From assembly GCF_001907295.1 (NCBI RefSeq), contig NZ_MQVR01000019.1, positions 1 through 33,860 on the forward strand: DNA of 33,860 bases. Direction: 5' to 3'. Shown here in pieces: positions 10,931 to 18,504 of the stretch. The stretch comes from Bowdeniella nasicola. GTDB lineage: Bacteria > Actinomycetota > Actinomycetes > Actinomycetales > Actinomycetaceae. Numbering within the stretch: position 1 is the first letter of the stretch; every line of letters starts with the position of its first letter. Below the pieces are notes generated by a model, which saw nothing but the letters and a program-made list of their open reading frames with translations, did not search any database and was not told the origin of the DNA. The translations under genes and the position numbers were made by a program.

Positions 10931-12105
10931 CGGATGCGCTCGTGATGACGCTGCCCGTTTGCGCGACCGCTTCGACCATGCCGGCGCGCGTACCGAGGTG
11001 CTCGGCCTCGTGGCGCGCGGTGGACGAGGAAGATCGTGTAGTCGATGCTGAGCGCGACGAGGAACAGGAACGCGAGGATCGGTACCTGCAGGTCGAGCGC
11101 CTGCTGATCGAACAGGACTCGGCTCAGCCACGAACCCGCGCCGATCGCCGCGACGGCGCCCACCTGGGCATCGGCGTTCGCGATCGGGTGTACGGTTTCG
11201 CGCAGTTCGGCGACCTGGTTCAGGCTTTGCTCGGTGCTCGGCGAGTACTCGCTCGTCACCATGACCTTCGTCGGCGCACCGTCGGCATTCTGGCCCACGG
11301 GATGCGCCCGCACGACGCCCTCGACGTCGTTCGCGGCAGCGACGACGTTTTCAGCAGCGGTGGAATTGGCAACGATCCAGATCGCTGCGCCTCCCCGGGC
11401 GGGAAGTGCTCCGACAGGGTCTGCAGGCCCGTCGCCGATTCGGACTGCACGCGGAATTTTTCGAGATGGTCGAGGCCGACCGGCGTGCCGAACAGGCCGC
11501 TCGCCATGACGGCGAGCAGGGCGATACCGCCGACGAGACTGGCCGCGGGCCGCTTCGCGACGTCGAGGCAAGAATCGCCGACACGGTATTGCGCCACGCG
11601 GTCGCGAGCGCCGCCCGGTCATTGTCGGTGCGTTGGAGTTCCTCGCGGTAGCGCGAAATCAGCAGCAGCGCGTAGTTCGTGCCGGCACCGAAAACGAGCA
11701 CGCTGACGATTCCCGCGTCGAACGCGAAGCCCCACGCCGTGCCCGCGGCCGCGACGTCCTCACTGACCATCGGACCCTGCGACTCGCCGGCCGCATGCGA
11801 CAGCAGCACTGGCAGCAAACCCTTAAGGTCGGCGACGTCCGTCTCCGACAGTTCAGCCCCGTCATTGCGGGAGGCGACGACGAGCACCGACTGCTGATCG
11901 GCGTTCGGGAACGTCCCGAGCAGATCAGAAACCTGTGACGCTTCGGAATTGACGGGGGCCTGACGTTAGCGGACGGCGCCTGCGCACCGCGAAACACGCC
12001 GAACAAGACAGTGACGATAAGGAGCGCTTACCCAAGGGCGACCAACGCGCCCCGGCGCGAGGTCAGCCGGTCAGCAAGATGCGGACGAGTTGATAATTCA
12101 GCCAT
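10931..12105 (-). pseudogene. MMPL/RND-type transporter, frameshifted and truncated
   Basis: The minus strand encodes recognisable pieces of an MMPL-family membrane exporter in several frames. From ATG at 12105 comes a 25-residue start ending GALVALG before a TAA at 12030-12028. Then follow, in other frames, LLIVTVLFGVFRGAQAPS, ASQVSDLLGTFPNADQQS, the GAGTNYALLLISRYREELQR motif of the transmembrane domain, SLVGGIALLAVMASGLFG, and LALSIDYTIFLVHRA near 11050, ending GMVEAVAQTGSVITSA near 10935. At least four frame changes are needed. The C-terminal part of a normal 700-residue or longer transporter is absent. MMPL proteins export drugs or lipids; this one cannot be functional. Confidence 0.88.
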
Positions 12106-12165
12106 GACACCCACTTCACCAAGCGCACGGATCTCCCCACACCGTGGAAGTGGTGGAACTTCCTG

Positions 12166-12181
12166 TCAACCAAATGGTTAA
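12166..12181. promoter_or_regulatory. Operator-like dyad between transporter remnant and deacetylase
   Basis: TCAACCAAATGGTTAA is a near-perfect dyad (TCAACCA/TGGTTAA, 6 of 7). On the minus strand it overlaps TTGACA (bases 12169-12164), a consensus -35 box pointing toward the MMPL remnant. TetR- or MarR-type repressors often bind such sites in front of MMPL exporters. No such regulator gene is in this window. Confidence 0.45.
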
Positions 12182-12254
12182 TATATCCGCCGAAGGCGCA
12201 GTTTTTGGCGACGCGATAGGGTCGAAGTGATGTGTACGACAGGGGGCTTACATC

Positions 12255-13256
12255 ATGACTCGACGTTCGATTCCGACTCGCGCCGCCGCCATCGGCGCAC
12301 TCCTCGCGTTGTCGATCGCCGCGTGCACACCGACCGGCGATAAACCCGGCGAGAACTGACCGAGTGCGGCGCCGACGACCTCGGCCGCGCAACCGACAGA
12401 CAGCGCGTCGCCCGAACCGACGGCCACCGAATCCGAAGAGCCGACCGAAACTCCAGACCCGAGCGGCCGCAAGGCCAGCAATGTTCCAATGGAAAAGCTC
12501 AAGCCGGGCGAAAAGCCGCCGCAGTTCATCATCGTGTCGTTCGACGGCGCCGGCTCGCACACGAAGTGGCAAGAATTCATGGCGGTCGCCAAGAAGCACG
12601 ACGCGCGTTTCGTCGGCTTCGTGACCGGCACCTACTTCATCGACGATGCGAAGAAGTCCGTCTACCAGGGGCCCGGCCACAAGGCGGGCAAGTCCTCGGT
12701 TGGTTTCGGCGGCGATGTCGAGCGGATCCGCAACCTCGTCAACGATCTCAATGAGGCCTACGAGGCCGGCCACGAAATCGGCACTCACTACAACGGCCAC
12801 TTCTGTGTCGGCGCTGCCCTATCGGGCAACGACTGGTCGATCGCGGACTGGACGAACGAGATTGAGCAGTTCAAAAAGTTTTTGACCGACCACAAAAAGA
12901 TCAACGGATACGACGACTCCTTCCCCGACCTCAAGGTGCCGGTCGACCACATCAAGGGCGGACGCACCCCCTGCCTCGAAGGCAAGCTCGACCGCATGAT
13001 CCCCGCGTGGAAGGACGCCGGCTTCACCTACGACACGTCGATGGTGCTCTCCAGCGGGCTGTCGTGGCCGGTGAACAAGGACGGGATCTGGAAGTTCCAG
13101 ATGCCCGTCGTGAACTCGCCTGCCTTCAAGTTGCTCAACTTTGATCCCGCACGTGACCCCGAGGCTGCCGCCACGTTCGATGCCACGTGGCAAAAGCTCT
13201 CCGAGGGGGGCACCGCCTTGATGCCCCTCGACGAGTACCCCTTCAATCCACGCTAA
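12255..13256 (+). pseudogene. Lipoprotein polysaccharide deacetylase, nonsense-mutated and fused
   Basis: An ATG at 12255 with AGGGGG at 12241-12246 opens a lipoprotein signal whose lipobox ends LSIAAC at Cys24, but codon 35 is TGA (12357-12359). The same frame then continues through a Ser/Thr/Pro/Glu linker into a NodB-like deacetylase domain with SFDGAG (Asp97), HEIGTH (173-178) and RTPC motifs. Such enzymes remove acetyl groups from wall or capsule glycans. At about 13128 the deacetylase stops after NSPAF and runs into the end of a VOC (PhnB-like) domain, KLSEGGTALMPLDEYPF, ending at TAA 13254-13256. An internal ATG at 12489 would give 255 residues with no signal. I regard it as a broken chimera. 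Confidence 0.75.
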
Positions 13257-13787
13257 GGCTGGATTCAAGACCGCTTCGGAGTCTCGTGGCAGCTCATGTT
13301 GACCAATCCCGACGGGGAGCCCCGGCCCTTTGTCACCACGCAGCTCATGTTTGGTGGCGACGCACAAAACCGCGCGAAAGAAGCGATCGAGTACTATCTC
13401 GCGACCTTCCAAAACTCGCGTGCAGACACCATCGTGCCCTATCCCGAACCGACCGGACCCGCACCCGCGGGCGGCATCATGTTCGCCGAATTCCAACTCG
13501 AGAACCAGTGGTTTTCGGCCATGGACTCCGGCGTTGAACAGTACTTCTCGTTCACACACGGGGTCTCGCTTGCGGTCAAATGCCGCGACCAGGACGAGAT
13601 CGACCGCTACTGGTCAGCGCTTTCCGCCGTTCCCGAGGCGGAGCAGTGTGGCTGGTGCATGGACCAATTCGGCGTCAGCTGGCAGATCCAGCCCGAGAAC
13701 ACCACCGATCTCATGGCCGATCCGGCCTGCTTTCAGCGACTGGAACACATAAAGAAGATCGACATCGCCGAACTGATCGGCGAGTAG
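13257..13787 (+). pseudogene. VOC/PhnB-like protein, 3' part of the same broken frame
   Basis: This continues in frame from the TAA at 13254. The codons GWIQDRFGVSWQLML complete the VOC domain begun before the stop, so TAC (Tyr) to TAA is the likely mutation in a family whose motif is normally RYGW. A second VOC domain follows (about 13310-13740) with EAIEYYLATFQNSR, FRAMDSG-like FSAMDSGVEQYF and CGWCMDQFGVSWQIQP. PhnB-like proteins share the glyoxalase fold, but many have no known substrate. The only ATG near the front (13296) lacks a ribosome binding site, so independent translation is doubtful. Confidence 0.65.
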
Positions 13788-13791
13788 CAGC

Positions 13792-13836
13792 CCGATGGGC
13801 GGGTAGGACGCAGTGAGCCTCCTACCCGCCCATCGG
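13792..13836. terminator. Bidirectional hairpin between VOC remnant and sialidase
   Basis: A perfect 17-bp GC-rich stem (13792-13808 with 13820-13836) and 11-base loop lie between two convergent reading frames. No T-run follows on either strand, but position and stability suit a shared terminator. Confidence 0.65.
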
Positions 13837-13846
13837 CGTACGCGGT

Positions 13847-16000
13847 CTAGGACAGCGCAGTCTTCCGGCGCACGATCAGTGCCCCGAGGCCGCCGAGCAG
13901 CAGCGCACCCGCACCGATCGCGAGCGCCACGCCGCTCGACCCCGTGATCGGCAGGGCCGGCTGGCTAGATGTGCTCGGAGCAGCGGTAGCGGTCGGCGAG
14001 ACCGGTTCCGACGGATCCGCGGTCGGCTGCATCGTCGGCTCGTCCGTCGGGGCCACGGTTGGTTCCTCGGTGGGTTCGACCGTGGGCTCCTCGGTTGGCT
14101 CGACCGTCGGTTCCTCAGTCGGCTCCTCCGTGGGTTCCGGCTTTGTCTCCACGAGCTGGATGGTCGGCTCCGACAGCTTAATCGTCGTCACGTCCGAGCC
14201 CGAGGTCGATACCCATGTCGTTTCCGGCGTGAATGAACCCTTGTCGAGGTCCGCCTGCGTCACCACGTGGTACGGGAACGGGCAGTCATACGACTTGTTG
14301 CCACCGAGTGTGGAGTAGCGGCAGTTCTTCTTGGCGGTGGCGGGATCGAAATCCTCGAGATTGCCCGATGGCACGACTTTCGTCGTCGCGTTCGACAGGT
14401 TCGTGACGTGGAAGTTGAACTTCAGTACGTCGCCGACGGCGTAGGGGAGCTCCTTCGGGTTCGTGTGCTTCACGGTGACGGCGATGCGCCCGTCGACCTC
14501 ATCGGCGGTCTTCGGGACGATGACGCTTAGCGTTCCGCTCGAGATGCGCCCGTTCTTATCGGTGAGGGTGAGCGGGATCTGGTAGGTGCCACTCGACGCG
14601 CCGGCGGGGACAGCGACCTTCGCTGTGACGGTGGTCGTGCCACTCGCGGCAAGCTTCGTGAGCGTTCCGTCGAGCTCGACGGTCCAGCCCTGCGGCGCTT
14701 TCGCGGTGAGGGAATCGACGCTGATCGCGGGGCCGAATTGGTTCTGCACCGTGATCTCGGCGCTGCCGGTCGTGCCGCGTTCGATCTCGACTTCGTTGGC
14801 GGTCAGCGGCGCGCACAGCCCGTTCAGCCACGAGGTGTTGAACTTCGAGAAGATGATGCCGTTATGGCCGGGCTCCCACAGGAGACCGATCTTGCCATCG
14901 GGCAGTGTCGCGAGCGTGGAGTAGGCCATCTGGCCCTTTGCGAAGACCTTGGAGATCGGCCACGTCTTGCCGTCATCGCAAGAGACGCGCACCGTCCCGT
15001 TGGAGCGGTTGTCGGTCGTGGCGGCGTTCGAGAACAGGAGGACCTTTGCCTCGGGGCTGCCCTGCTTCGCATTCGGGAATGCGCGCAGGATTGAGCCGTT
15101 ATTCGTCGGGTCGATGAGCTGCTTGTCGTAATGCCACGGCCCGTAGGAATGTCCGCCGTCGGTCGAGTACGCGATCTTGCGGTAGCCGGAGCGGGCCGAG
15201 TCGCGCGAGTTCAGCATGACGGTGCCATCGGAGAGCTCGACGGTCTTGTTCTCATCCATCCCGGTGCCGAACGGCTCGCCAGACTTCCAGGTTTTGCCGT
15301 GGTCATCGGAGTAGATCGAGACGGACTGCAGGTCCCCGTTCGGCGGCAGGATCGCGTACTGCTGGATCAGGCGACCCTTGTACTTGCCGTACTTCAGTTG
15401 GATGCCCTGGCCGGAGGAGGCAAAGCGCGATCGGATCGACAGATCCGGCGTAATCTCGGCCGTGATATCGCGGCTCGTCCACGTCTTGCCATCGTCATCG
15501 GACTGCGCGACATAGGCGTGCAGGACCTCGCGGTCGTTCGGGTCGACGCCCGGCTTGGAACCGAAGAAGCCCTGGTTATAGGACTTCACGTGGAAGTTGA
15601 AGATCGTTCCGGTCTCTCGATCGACGAGGTAACTCGGATCCGAATACCCCTCCTTGGGGTCGGCCTTACCCGCATTGATGACGGTCTGCTCGCCCCAGGT
15701 CTTTCCGTTGTCCTCCGAACGGCGTTGCAGGATCGAGTTCGGGCCCGGCGCATCGATGCCGGTGGGGCGTCCGTCGTAGGATGCAAGGATGGTTCCTGCG
15801 TTAGTGACTGCGAGGGCCGGAATGCGGTAGTTCGGGAAGACCCCGTCGCCTCCCATAGCCAGTTGCTGCTGAGTGTATTGCGGTTGATCATCCGACCACA
15901 GGGAGTCGGCGTCATAGTCGCCTGAGGGCGCGGCCGACACGGGTAGAGCGAGCAGCATGGTGAGGGCGCATACGCCGATGGCGAGGCGAGAGGATCTCAT
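13847..16000 (-). CDS. nanH: Cell-wall-anchored exo-alpha-sialidase
   Basis: Sialidases release terminal sialic acid from host glycans. ATG at 16000 is chosen because AAAGGAG lies just upstream (16012-16006); a frame extension to 16021 lacks one. The 717-residue product has a signal peptide cleaved near VSA-AP (23-24), the catalytic YRIP motif with Arg59, and five Asp boxes (SEDNGKTW, SDDDGKTW, SDDHGKTW, STDGGHSY, SCDDGKTW). A NEW3-type beta-sandwich domain follows at about 405-490, another extracellular domain to about 610, a Pro-Thr-Glu repeat spacer (617-663), and the sorting signal LPITG at 683-687 with a hydrophobic helix and RRK tail. It should be covalently attached to the wall by sortase, and points to life on animal mucosa. 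Confidence 0.95.
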   Translation of the reverse strand: MRSSRLAIGVCALTMLLALPVSAAPSGDYDADSLWSDDQPQYTQQQLAMGGDGVFPNYRIPALAVTNAGTILASYDGRPTGIDAPGPNSILQRRSEDNGKTWGEQTVINAGKADPKEGYSDPSYLVDRETGTIFNFHVKSYNQGFFGSKPGVDPNDREVLHAYVAQSDDDGKTWTSRDITAEITPDLSIRSRFASSGQGIQLKYGKYKGRLIQQYAILPPNGDLQSVSIYSDDHGKTWKSGEPFGTGMDENKTVELSDGTVMLNSRDSARSGYRKIAYSTDGGHSYGPWHYDKQLIDPTNNGSILRAFPNAKQGSPEAKVLLFSNAATTDNRSNGTVRVSCDDGKTWPISKVFAKGQMAYSTLATLPDGKIGLLWEPGHNGIIFSKFNTSWLNGLCAPLTANEVEIERGTTGSAEITVQNQFGPAISVDSLTAKAPQGWTVELDGTLTKLAASGTTTVTAKVAVPAGASSGTYQIPLTLTDKNGRISSGTLSVIVPKTADEVDGRIAVTVKHTNPKELPYAVGDVLKFNFHVTNLSNATTKVVPSGNLEDFDPATAKKNCRYSTLGGNKSYDCPFPYHVVTQADLDKGSFTPETTWVSTSGSDVTTIKLSEPTIQLVETKPEPTEEPTEEPTVEPTEEPTVEPTEEPTVAPTDEPTMQPTADPSEPVSPTATAAPSTSSQPALPITGSSGVALAIGAGALLLGGLGALIVRRKTALS

Positions 16001-16022
16001 CGGGTCTCCTTTGACTGGCACG

Positions 16023-16116: not shown

Positions 16117-17967
16117 ATGGCAATCTTCCGGGACACGAAAGCGGGCGTAGCTATGGGCAAGAATCAGTGGTGGCGCGACCAGGTGGTCTATCAGATCTAC
16201 CCCCGATCATTCGCAGACTCCAACGGCGACGGAATCGGTGACCTGCGCGGGACCATCGACCACGTCGACCACCTGGCCCAACTCGGCGTCGGCGTCGTGT
16301 GGCTCTCACCGATCTGTGCCTCACCGCAAGACGACAACGGCTACGACATCTCGAACTACCAGCAGATCGACCCGATGTTCGGCACGCTCGAGGACTTCGA
16401 CGAACTCGTCGCCGCCCTGCACGCGCGCGACATCCGCCTCGTCATGGACCTCGTCGTCAACCACACCTCCGATGAGCACGAGTGGTTCATCGAATCCGCC
16501 TCCGCGAAGGACTCACCCAAACGCGACTGGTATATCTGGCGCGAGGGCAAGGACGGGAAGGAACCCAATAATTGGGAGTCGTTCTTCTCGGGCCCGACGT
16601 GGGAGTGGAACGAAGCCACCCAGCAGTACTACCTCCACCTATTCAGCAAGAAACAGCCTGACCTCAACTGGGAAAACCCCGAGGTGCGGCAGGCCGTCTA
16701 CGCGATGATGCGCTGGTGGCTGGAGCGTGGTGTCGACGGCTTCCGTATGGACGTCATCAACCTCATCTCTAAGGTGCCGGGCCTGCCCGACGGCCCGGTC
16801 GGCCCGACGGGGCGCGGCTCCTGCTTCGACGCGTGCGCGAACGGGCCTCGCTTCCACGAATTCCTCGCCGAGATGCGCCGCGAGGTCTTCGACGCCTACC
16901 CGGATCGCACGTTCCTCACGGTGGGGGAGACGCCCGGCATCGGGATCGACGATGCGCTGAAGTGCTCAGACCCCGCACGCGGCGAAGTCGACATGGTCTT
17001 CCAGTTCGAACACGTCGGTCTCGACAACAATCCCGGCGACAAGTTCGCGATCGACCGGCCCGAGCATACACTCACGAATCTCGCCGGAAACCTCGCAGCC
17101 TGGCAGGAGGGGATGGACGAGCGCGGCTGGAATTCGCTGTACTTCGAAAACCACGATCAGCCACGATCGGTCAGCCGCTGGGGCGATGACTCCGAAGAGA
17201 TCTCGCCCGCTGGCGGGACGTGGCGAGAACGATCCGCAAAGGCGCTCGCGGGCATGCTGCACGCGCACCGCGGGACGCCGTACGTCTACCAGGGACAGGA
17301 ACTCGGGATGAACAACACCCCGTGGCAGCGCCTGTCGGAGTTCCGCGACCTCGAGGTCCTCAACTATGTCGCGGTGCGTCAGGCCGAAGGAAAAGTTTTC
17401 GACGACATGCTCGCCGGCATCGCGCGAGTCAACCGCGATAACGCGCGCACACCGATGCAATGGAGTGGCGAACCGGGTGCCGGATTCTCGACGGGCGAGC
17501 CGTGGATTGCCGTGAACCCGGCGGCCGCGTACATCAACGCGGCAGCCCAGGTGGGTAAGCCCGGTTCGGTTTTCGAGTTCTATCGCGCCCTGATCGCGCT
17601 GCGCCGCGAGAACCCGGTACTCGTCCACGGCGACTTCGAGCTGCTCTCGCCGCTCGCCGACTGCGCCCATCCAGACCTGTGGGCGGTGCGTCGGATGTTC
17701 GACGGAGAGAGCCTGACGGCGCTTGCGAACTTCTCGCGGGAAGACGCCGAGGTACCTAGCGAGTGGTGGCCGCAGGGCGCGAGCGTCGTCCTCGGCAGTG
17801 ACCTTGACGCGGACGCGCGCGTGCTGCGCGGCTGGGAGTTCGTGTTCCTGTCGCACAGGGCCGACCGTGCGACAGGTGGTCGTTCAGCGTGTGGGGCAGA
17901 TACTGCTCGACGATCTAGATATCGCGGACCCGACTGTGGACGAGGTTGGACAGGGCCACATCGATGA
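16117..17967 (+). CDS. GH13 alpha-glucosidase / oligo-1,6-glucosidase
   Basis: This intracellular-type enzyme (no signal peptide) hydrolyses alpha-glucosides such as isomaltose, maltose or trehalose-like oligosaccharides. [15 protein letters not shown] opens the barrel. The GH13 motifs are clear: [14 protein letters not shown] with nucleophile Asp212, acid/base Glu271 in VGETPG, and ENHDQPR with His346-Asp347. The QPR and INLISK signature suits oligo-1,6-glucosidases (subfamily 31). ATG 16117 may be leaderless; 16153 is an alternative. The last 40 or so residues (after VLRGWEF, base 17838 on) are unlike the family and run antisense to a glgC remnant, so the native end is lost by a rearrangement. 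The catalytic domains are complete and activity may survive. Confidence 0.88.
17847..17876. repeat. 10-bp inverted repeat at a rearrangement junction
   Basis: CCTGTCGCAC (17847-17856) and GTGCGACAGG (17867-17876) form a perfect dyad with a 10-base loop. It lies exactly where glucosidase-like sequence ends and the glgC remnant begins, so it may have promoted, or resulted from, the join. Confidence 0.55.
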
Positions 17968-18079
17968 GCCGGTAGCTTCCGCCCATTGGCAGGGCCGGTT
18001 TCACTCGATGATCGGTGAGCGCCCCGAGCCGGGATTCCTTGCCGCCGGCGAGAATGATCGCGGCAGGCGAGGTCATCAT
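17859..18079 (-). pseudogene. glgC-like nucleotidyltransferase N-terminal remnant
   Basis: From ATG at 18079 (or 18076) the minus strand encodes the start of a glucose-1-phosphate adenylyltransferase-like protein: [20 protein letters not shown], then [19 protein letters not shown], an in-frame TAG at 17917-17915 where the family has Trp, and [19 protein letters not shown]. GlgC makes ADP-glucose for glycogen or trehalose synthesis. About 70 of some 400 residues remain, with no ribosome binding site, so this is a dead fragment. It is joined antisense to the glucosidase end on one side and to a dehydrogenase fragment on the other. Confidence 0.88.
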
Positions 18080-18081
18080 TG

Positions 18082-18504
18082 AGGGAATCCCGAATGCCGG
18101 CCTGGGCAGAGGACGGCACGATGTATGCCTCCGAGTTCGGAGCCTCGACCTTCGACGAGCTCAACGTCATCGAAGCGGGCGGCAACTACGGCTGGCCCGA
18201 GGCCGAGGGGATCGCGAACGGTGTCTTCATCGACCCGATCGCGCAGTGGGCGACGGCGGACGCCTCGCCGAGCGGGATCGCGGTCGACGGGGATCGGGTG
18301 CTCATCGCGAATCTGCGTGGACGCAGCCTGCGCGCCGTCGACCGGAGCGATCCGACCCGGCAGGACCTGCTCATCGAAGGCCAGGGGCGGATCCGTGACG
18401 TGGTCGTGACACCCGAGGGTGAGATCTGGGCGGCGACGAGTAATCTCGACGGCCGCGGGGAGCCCGGCGAGCAGGGCGACCTCATCATCAACGTCTCGAG
18501 GTGA
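18082..18504 (+). pseudogene. PQQ-type sugar dehydrogenase, C-terminal remnant
   Basis: The plus strand carries the last third of a soluble aldose/glucose-sorbosone dehydrogenase: [52 protein letters not shown] and IRDVVVTPEGEIWAATSN, ending at TGA 18502-18504. These periplasmic or lipid-linked beta-propellers oxidise sugars with PQQ. The GNYGWP motif is diagnostic. Homology starts abruptly near 18082, where GGAATCCCGAA resembles the usual RNPEG stretch but is one base short, giving a frameshift. The N-terminal two thirds, signal and active-site half are missing. Confidence 0.85.

Follow-up and report, generated by a model that had tools for sequence, protein, structure and literature searches.

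Polysaccharide deacetylases of the NodB-like superfamily (PF01522) include an actinobacterial lipoprotein branch, of which Bowdeniella nasicola KPR-1 encodes an intact, 426-aa member. PhnB-like VOC proteins (PF06983, '3-dmu-9_3-mt'), which are relatives of the solved chain 3oms, consist of two domains, the VOC domain being cytoplasmic as a rule. At the locus described here, parts of one gene of each type lie end to end on one strand. Arrangements of this sort have a described counterpart in the deletion-derived chimeric pseudogenes of bacteria, a topic tied to the deletional bias of their genomes (PMC2916853, PMC5447742). The locus resembles these pseudogenes, as the truncated ends of two genes are joined, premature stops are present, other joins lie nearby and a full-length relative was not found for the chimera, but it differs from them in that the join happens in frame, hence the idea of a fusion gene. 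A literature search, judged by titles and abstract openings, returned no paper on this locus. The locus is very probably an ordinary, recently decayed chimeric pseudogene, which arose by deletion or rearrangement, rather than a working fusion protein.

The window, i.e. the whole stretch of 33,860 nucleotides analysed, is an entire contig (NZ_MQVR01000019.1) of a 2.64-Mb draft genome of B. nasicola in 204 contigs, and the comparison locus is that of B. nasicola KPR-1 (NZ_FNQV01000010.1, family Actinomycetaceae; genome G003). The features of the window considered below are as follows.

12255–12356 (+), start codon, lipoprotein-type signal and start of a low-complexity linker; 34 codons closed by TGA, with a similar layout in the intact relative
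12357–12359 (+), first internal stop, TGA (codon 35), in the variable linker
12489–13127 (+), deacetylase-like core; 213 codons with 85% protein identity to KPR-1 codons 96–308
13127–13128 (+), deacetylase-like/VOC junction; blastn homology ends at 13127 and VOC alignments begin at about this point
13128–13253 (+), remnant of the first VOC domain; N-terminal part missing (about 80 codons in homologues)
13254–13256 (+), second internal stop, TAA (codon 334), in a conserved VOC column
13257–13787 (+), rest of the first VOC domain and complete second domain (PF06983), ending in TAG
13296–13787 (+), 163-aa ORF with its own ATG and one complete VOC domain; possible surviving product
13787–13843 (+), long, near-perfect hairpin in the spacer that separates the VOC fragment from the convergent sialidase gene; −43.4 kcal/mol, z −6.3
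13847–16021 (−), sialidase-like gene, convergent neighbour, with PT repeats and an LPXTG-type C-terminus; same neighbour in KPR-1
16117–17967 (+), alpha-amylase-family gene; 616-aa ORF, 578-aa ORF in KPR-1
17856–18062 (−), short 5' remnant of a gene present as a 388-aa ORF in KPR-1 (blastn)
18099–18504 (+), C-terminal remnant of a glucose/sorbosone dehydrogenase-like gene (Pfam and blastn)

Reading frame and parent genes

One plus-strand frame covers 511 codons (12255–13787), in which TGA and TAA are the only internal stops and TAG is the terminal one. A count of the frame confirms the earlier note, which had described a lipoprotein signal, a deacetylase and VOC sequence sharing a single frame broken by TGA at codon 35 and by TAA at 13254. 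It is the TAA that falls inside conserved sequence, while the TGA sits in the variable linker. The assertion that the TAA replaces a family tyrosine is borne out by the alignment, where this column holds Tyr in 34 of 35 VOC rows and Phe in the remaining one (the 35 rows represent 34 distinct genes, as L028 and L033 are the identical gene). The low number of stops was considered as evidence in its own right and dropped, as the most open frame contained three stops or fewer (terminal stop counted) in 38 of 1,000 first-order Markov sequences, and one minus-strand frame across the same stretch contains 2 stops only. The case rests on homology rather than on the openness of the frame.

The deacetylase-like part shares with the lipoprotein branch the signal, with a lipobox-like cysteine (LSIAACTP, by eye), the linker, and the SFDG, HYNGH, RTPC and YD motifs. 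It scores 22.6 bits against PF01522, below the gathering cut-off of 23.1, and is alike in this to the intact KPR-1 relative, which scores 14.9 bits. The designation 'NodB' in the earlier note relies on this sub-threshold Pfam match together with the conserved motifs, with conserved columns matched to what is taken here to be the NodB motif scheme. Among columns at least 95% conserved in an alignment of 81 rows (at most 80 distinct proteins), 53 of the 55 in the retained part are kept, whereas all 28 in the lost C-terminal part are gone, the histidine motif among them; N361, R362, A363, P364 and H370, which are present in 81/81 rows, belong to this missing part. The N-terminal motifs of the NodB set are thus kept and the C-terminal block is absent. 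Relative to intact lipoproteins of the branch, the window is devoid of the C-terminal 118 codons (with the NRAP and NHFNNW motifs) and has an internal TGA between signal and core, and a functional deacetylase is presumably not made. The same genome contains four other PF01522 matches, all above the cut-off, so deacetylases of other branches remain. A PDB search with the deacetylase-like relative gave no match (E up to 0.01).

The VOC half (13128–13787) corresponds to the last 219 codons of a PhnB-like gene, and its PF06983 match on 13257–13784 reaches 135.8 bits against a cut-off of 24. The part after the TAA shares 55% identity with an intact 313-aa VOC gene (genome G019) and 61% with the VOC gene of G017, which is open up to a masked stretch; five chains were retrieved in a PDB search with a VOC relative. 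The open frames of homologues extend over 302–379 codons from stop to stop, a range given without L027, whose frame enters a masked stretch. In the 35 VOC rows, 80–160 residues precede the junction column when counted from the upstream stop, hence about 80 from the likely start. The closest relatives have two complete VOC domains, whereas the first domain in the window is cut N-terminally and carries the TAA. Conservation of the remainder is high, as 54 of 58 VOC columns (at least 90% conserved, 35 rows) are kept overall and 53 of 57 from the join onward; the TAA accounts for one of the four lost columns. A match to the VOC query is present in 12 of 39 relatives (own genome included) and in none of the three other genomes of the genus, so the gene was gained here or lost there; it was probably once whole at this place.

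Junction and comparison with KPR-1

DNA homology to KPR-1 extends from 12405 to 13127 at 81% identity (blastn) and then stops, after codon 308 of the 426-aa gene, the C-terminal 118 codons of which are missing here. Because of this sharp end, the in-frame join that had been placed at about 13128 is located correctly. For both parents, homology breaks off at a single point and the outer end is absent, and each half has an intact full-length relative (426 aa for the deacetylase-like half, 313 aa for the VOC half). The missing ends of both genes were sought elsewhere in the same genome and none was found, in a search made with no positive control and with one query taken from a distant relative.

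In KPR-1 a spacer of 90 bp separates the intact deacetylase-like gene from the convergent sialidase gene, and no VOC match was found between the two or anywhere in 14.2 kb of the KPR-1 locus. The order of deacetylase-like, sialidase, alpha-amylase-family, glucose/sorbosone dehydrogenase-like and peptidyl-prolyl isomerase genes is common to KPR-1 and the window. In the other two genomes of the genus, G001 and G002, no deacetylase-like, sialidase or alpha-amylase-family match lies beside the peptidyl-prolyl isomerase gene (2/2; stretches of 6.3 and 12.8 kb ending at contig ends), and the deacetylase-like protein has no match in either whole genome.

The KPR-1 sialidase open frame (L026, 7984–9738) stops before the PT-repeat/LPXTG tail, and the window and KPR-1 differ on both sides of the deacetylase/sialidase spacer. 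The hairpin at 13787–13843 has no T-run on the plus strand and is possibly a shared terminator of the convergent genes; the hairpin seen by eye in the KPR-1 spacer has a different sequence, so the spacer as a whole is unlike that of the window.

Two further joins lie downstream. KPR-1 homology of the alpha-amylase-family gene ends at 17856, just before the KPR-1 stop codon, so that the gene has lost its own stop codon, and 1,566 bp of KPR-1 are absent at this point, before the 5' remnant. The third join falls between 18062 and 18099, where 585 bp of KPR-1 have no match; even in KPR-1, the Pfam match of the dehydrogenase-like copy begins only at profile position 75. As both joins leave truncated genes in the window, they are likely deletions here and not insertions in KPR-1. 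Another pseudogene, an MMPL-family transporter remnant in two frames (11014–11716, −), is situated between a tRNA-Ala gene and the deacetylase-like gene. With two further joins within 5 kb and the MMPL-family remnant, the deacetylase-VOC join is one of several scars.

The dN/dS ratio against KPR-1 is 0.092 for the deacetylase-like core and 0.319 for the signal and linker, compared with 0.244 for the sialidase, 0.117 for the alpha-amylase-family gene and 0.261 for a rhomboid-like gene. The value of about 0.09 in the core suggests a recent loss, these ratios being averages over the whole split from KPR-1 that cannot date it. Both halves look as if constrained until recently. As a rough scale, some 54 random base changes would be expected to give two nonsense changes in such a frame, a figure which assumes neutral decay and is no date.

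Origin of the chimera

A fused query, composed of the deacetylase-like and VOC protein with X at the TAA, matches 61 of 213 family genomes (own included), and only its own contig clearly spans both parts. The lone other match across the join, in genome G123, is weak (29%, residues 176–270, E 6e-4), and apart from it, the own contig and KPR-1 (residues 1–218), family matches start at query residue 205 or later. In an order-wide sample of 396 genomes, which shares members with the family sample, the query matches 231 (own included), with no fusion among the matches listed, where those of deacetylase type end at residue 219 at the latest and those of VOC type start at residue 210 at the earliest. 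All of the best 80 of 118 loci keep the C-terminal part of the deacetylase-like protein itself, and none of these 80 has a VOC match in the deacetylase frame. By best matches, the C-terminal part lies in the same frame in 79 of the 80; in L071 the best C-terminal match is about 600 bp upstream of the core, and a joined match still covers residues 60–422. In L073 and L074 a weak VOC match occurs 6–10 kb away on the opposite strand.

The earlier note had left two readings of the frame, a fusion gene that existed before two late mutations, or agreement by chance, and had proposed a search for an intact fusion in relatives. Such a fusion was not found in the 213 family genomes, the matches listed for the 396 order genomes and the 80 loci, the weak G123 match apart, and the KPR-1 gene has its own C-terminus, which speaks against the former reading; the latter gains support, as deletion joins stay in frame in one case out of three. 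A true working fusion, i.e. an exported deacetylase-like lipoprotein with a VOC module, lost by two late nonsense changes, would account for the frame kept over the join and for the retention of most conserved residues in both halves, but is highly improbable, since none that convinces occurs in the genomes searched. It would be devoid of the conserved C-terminal block on the deacetylase side and of much of the first VOC domain, it would couple an exported lipoprotein to a normally cytoplasmic domain, and the one-third chance of an in-frame join means that no ancestral fusion is needed. Read-through of TGA and TAA into one 510-residue protein, which the presence of only two stops might suggest, is improbable in the extreme, because each of the three stop codons terminates ordinary genes of the window (n=22 checked: TGA 7, TAG 5 and TAA 10), TGA with its 7 of 22 being a normal stop here; no relative with a fusion was found, and the product would be deprived of the conserved ends of both proteins. 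Recoding was rejected on this stop usage. Artefact, either a mis-assembled join or two stops that are base-call errors, might be suspected in a draft genome of 204 contigs, but is very unlikely, as the flanks of the join are ordered as in KPR-1 (deacetylase-like left, sialidase right), so that a mis-assembly would have had to place an insert within a conserved gene order. Erosion of a similar kind is seen at the two joins nearby, and the missing ends had no match elsewhere in the assembly in the search without positive control described above.

The pseudogene reading, by comparison, would start from a lipoprotein gene of deacetylase type and a two-domain PhnB-like VOC gene, located on one strand upstream of the convergent sialidase gene. 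A single event, deletion or illegitimate recombination, probably joined codon 308 of the deacetylase-like gene to a point midway in the first VOC domain, with the loss of the last 118 codons of the former and about 80 N-terminal codons of the latter, and the remainders would be in frame by chance. The nonsense codons in the linker and the first VOC domain would presumably have come after the join or along with it. After the deletion and before the nonsense changes, a fused ORF may have existed for a short time in this strain only; the 298 open codons across the join (12360–13253) and the otherwise complete VOC frame fit a young gene too.

Compatible with the pseudogene reading, the deacetylase part may be dead while translation from the ATG of the 163-aa ORF (13296–13787) gives a single-domain VOC protein, which is unlikely on present evidence. 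The ORF contains a complete PF06983 domain and preserves the codon-position GC pattern, and many of the listed order-wide matches cover only query residues from about 294 on, often in open frames of 160–210 codons (the ORF starts at query residue 270). Against this, no good ribosome-binding site is seen at the usual spacing (by eye), the domain derives from a two-domain protein, and a promoter scan of 12000–14000 found none, a result that says little, as 0.3 were expected by chance and the sigma-70 consensus only was used. That the second VOC domain was set free by the deletion and is now made as a new single-domain protein from the internal ATG at 13296 is rather improbable; if true, it would be a natural case of domain shedding, observed shortly after the break-up of a two-domain gene.

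The locus calls for caution: in a G+C-rich genome, two domains that are joined in frame and interrupted by few stops do not by that count as evidence for a fusion protein, and automatic annotation could log the stretch either as a fusion of deacetylase and VOC or as a pair of short 'genes'. As a chimeric pseudogene, it would provide a small example of stepwise gene loss, among sugar-related genes, seen between two Bowdeniella genomes.
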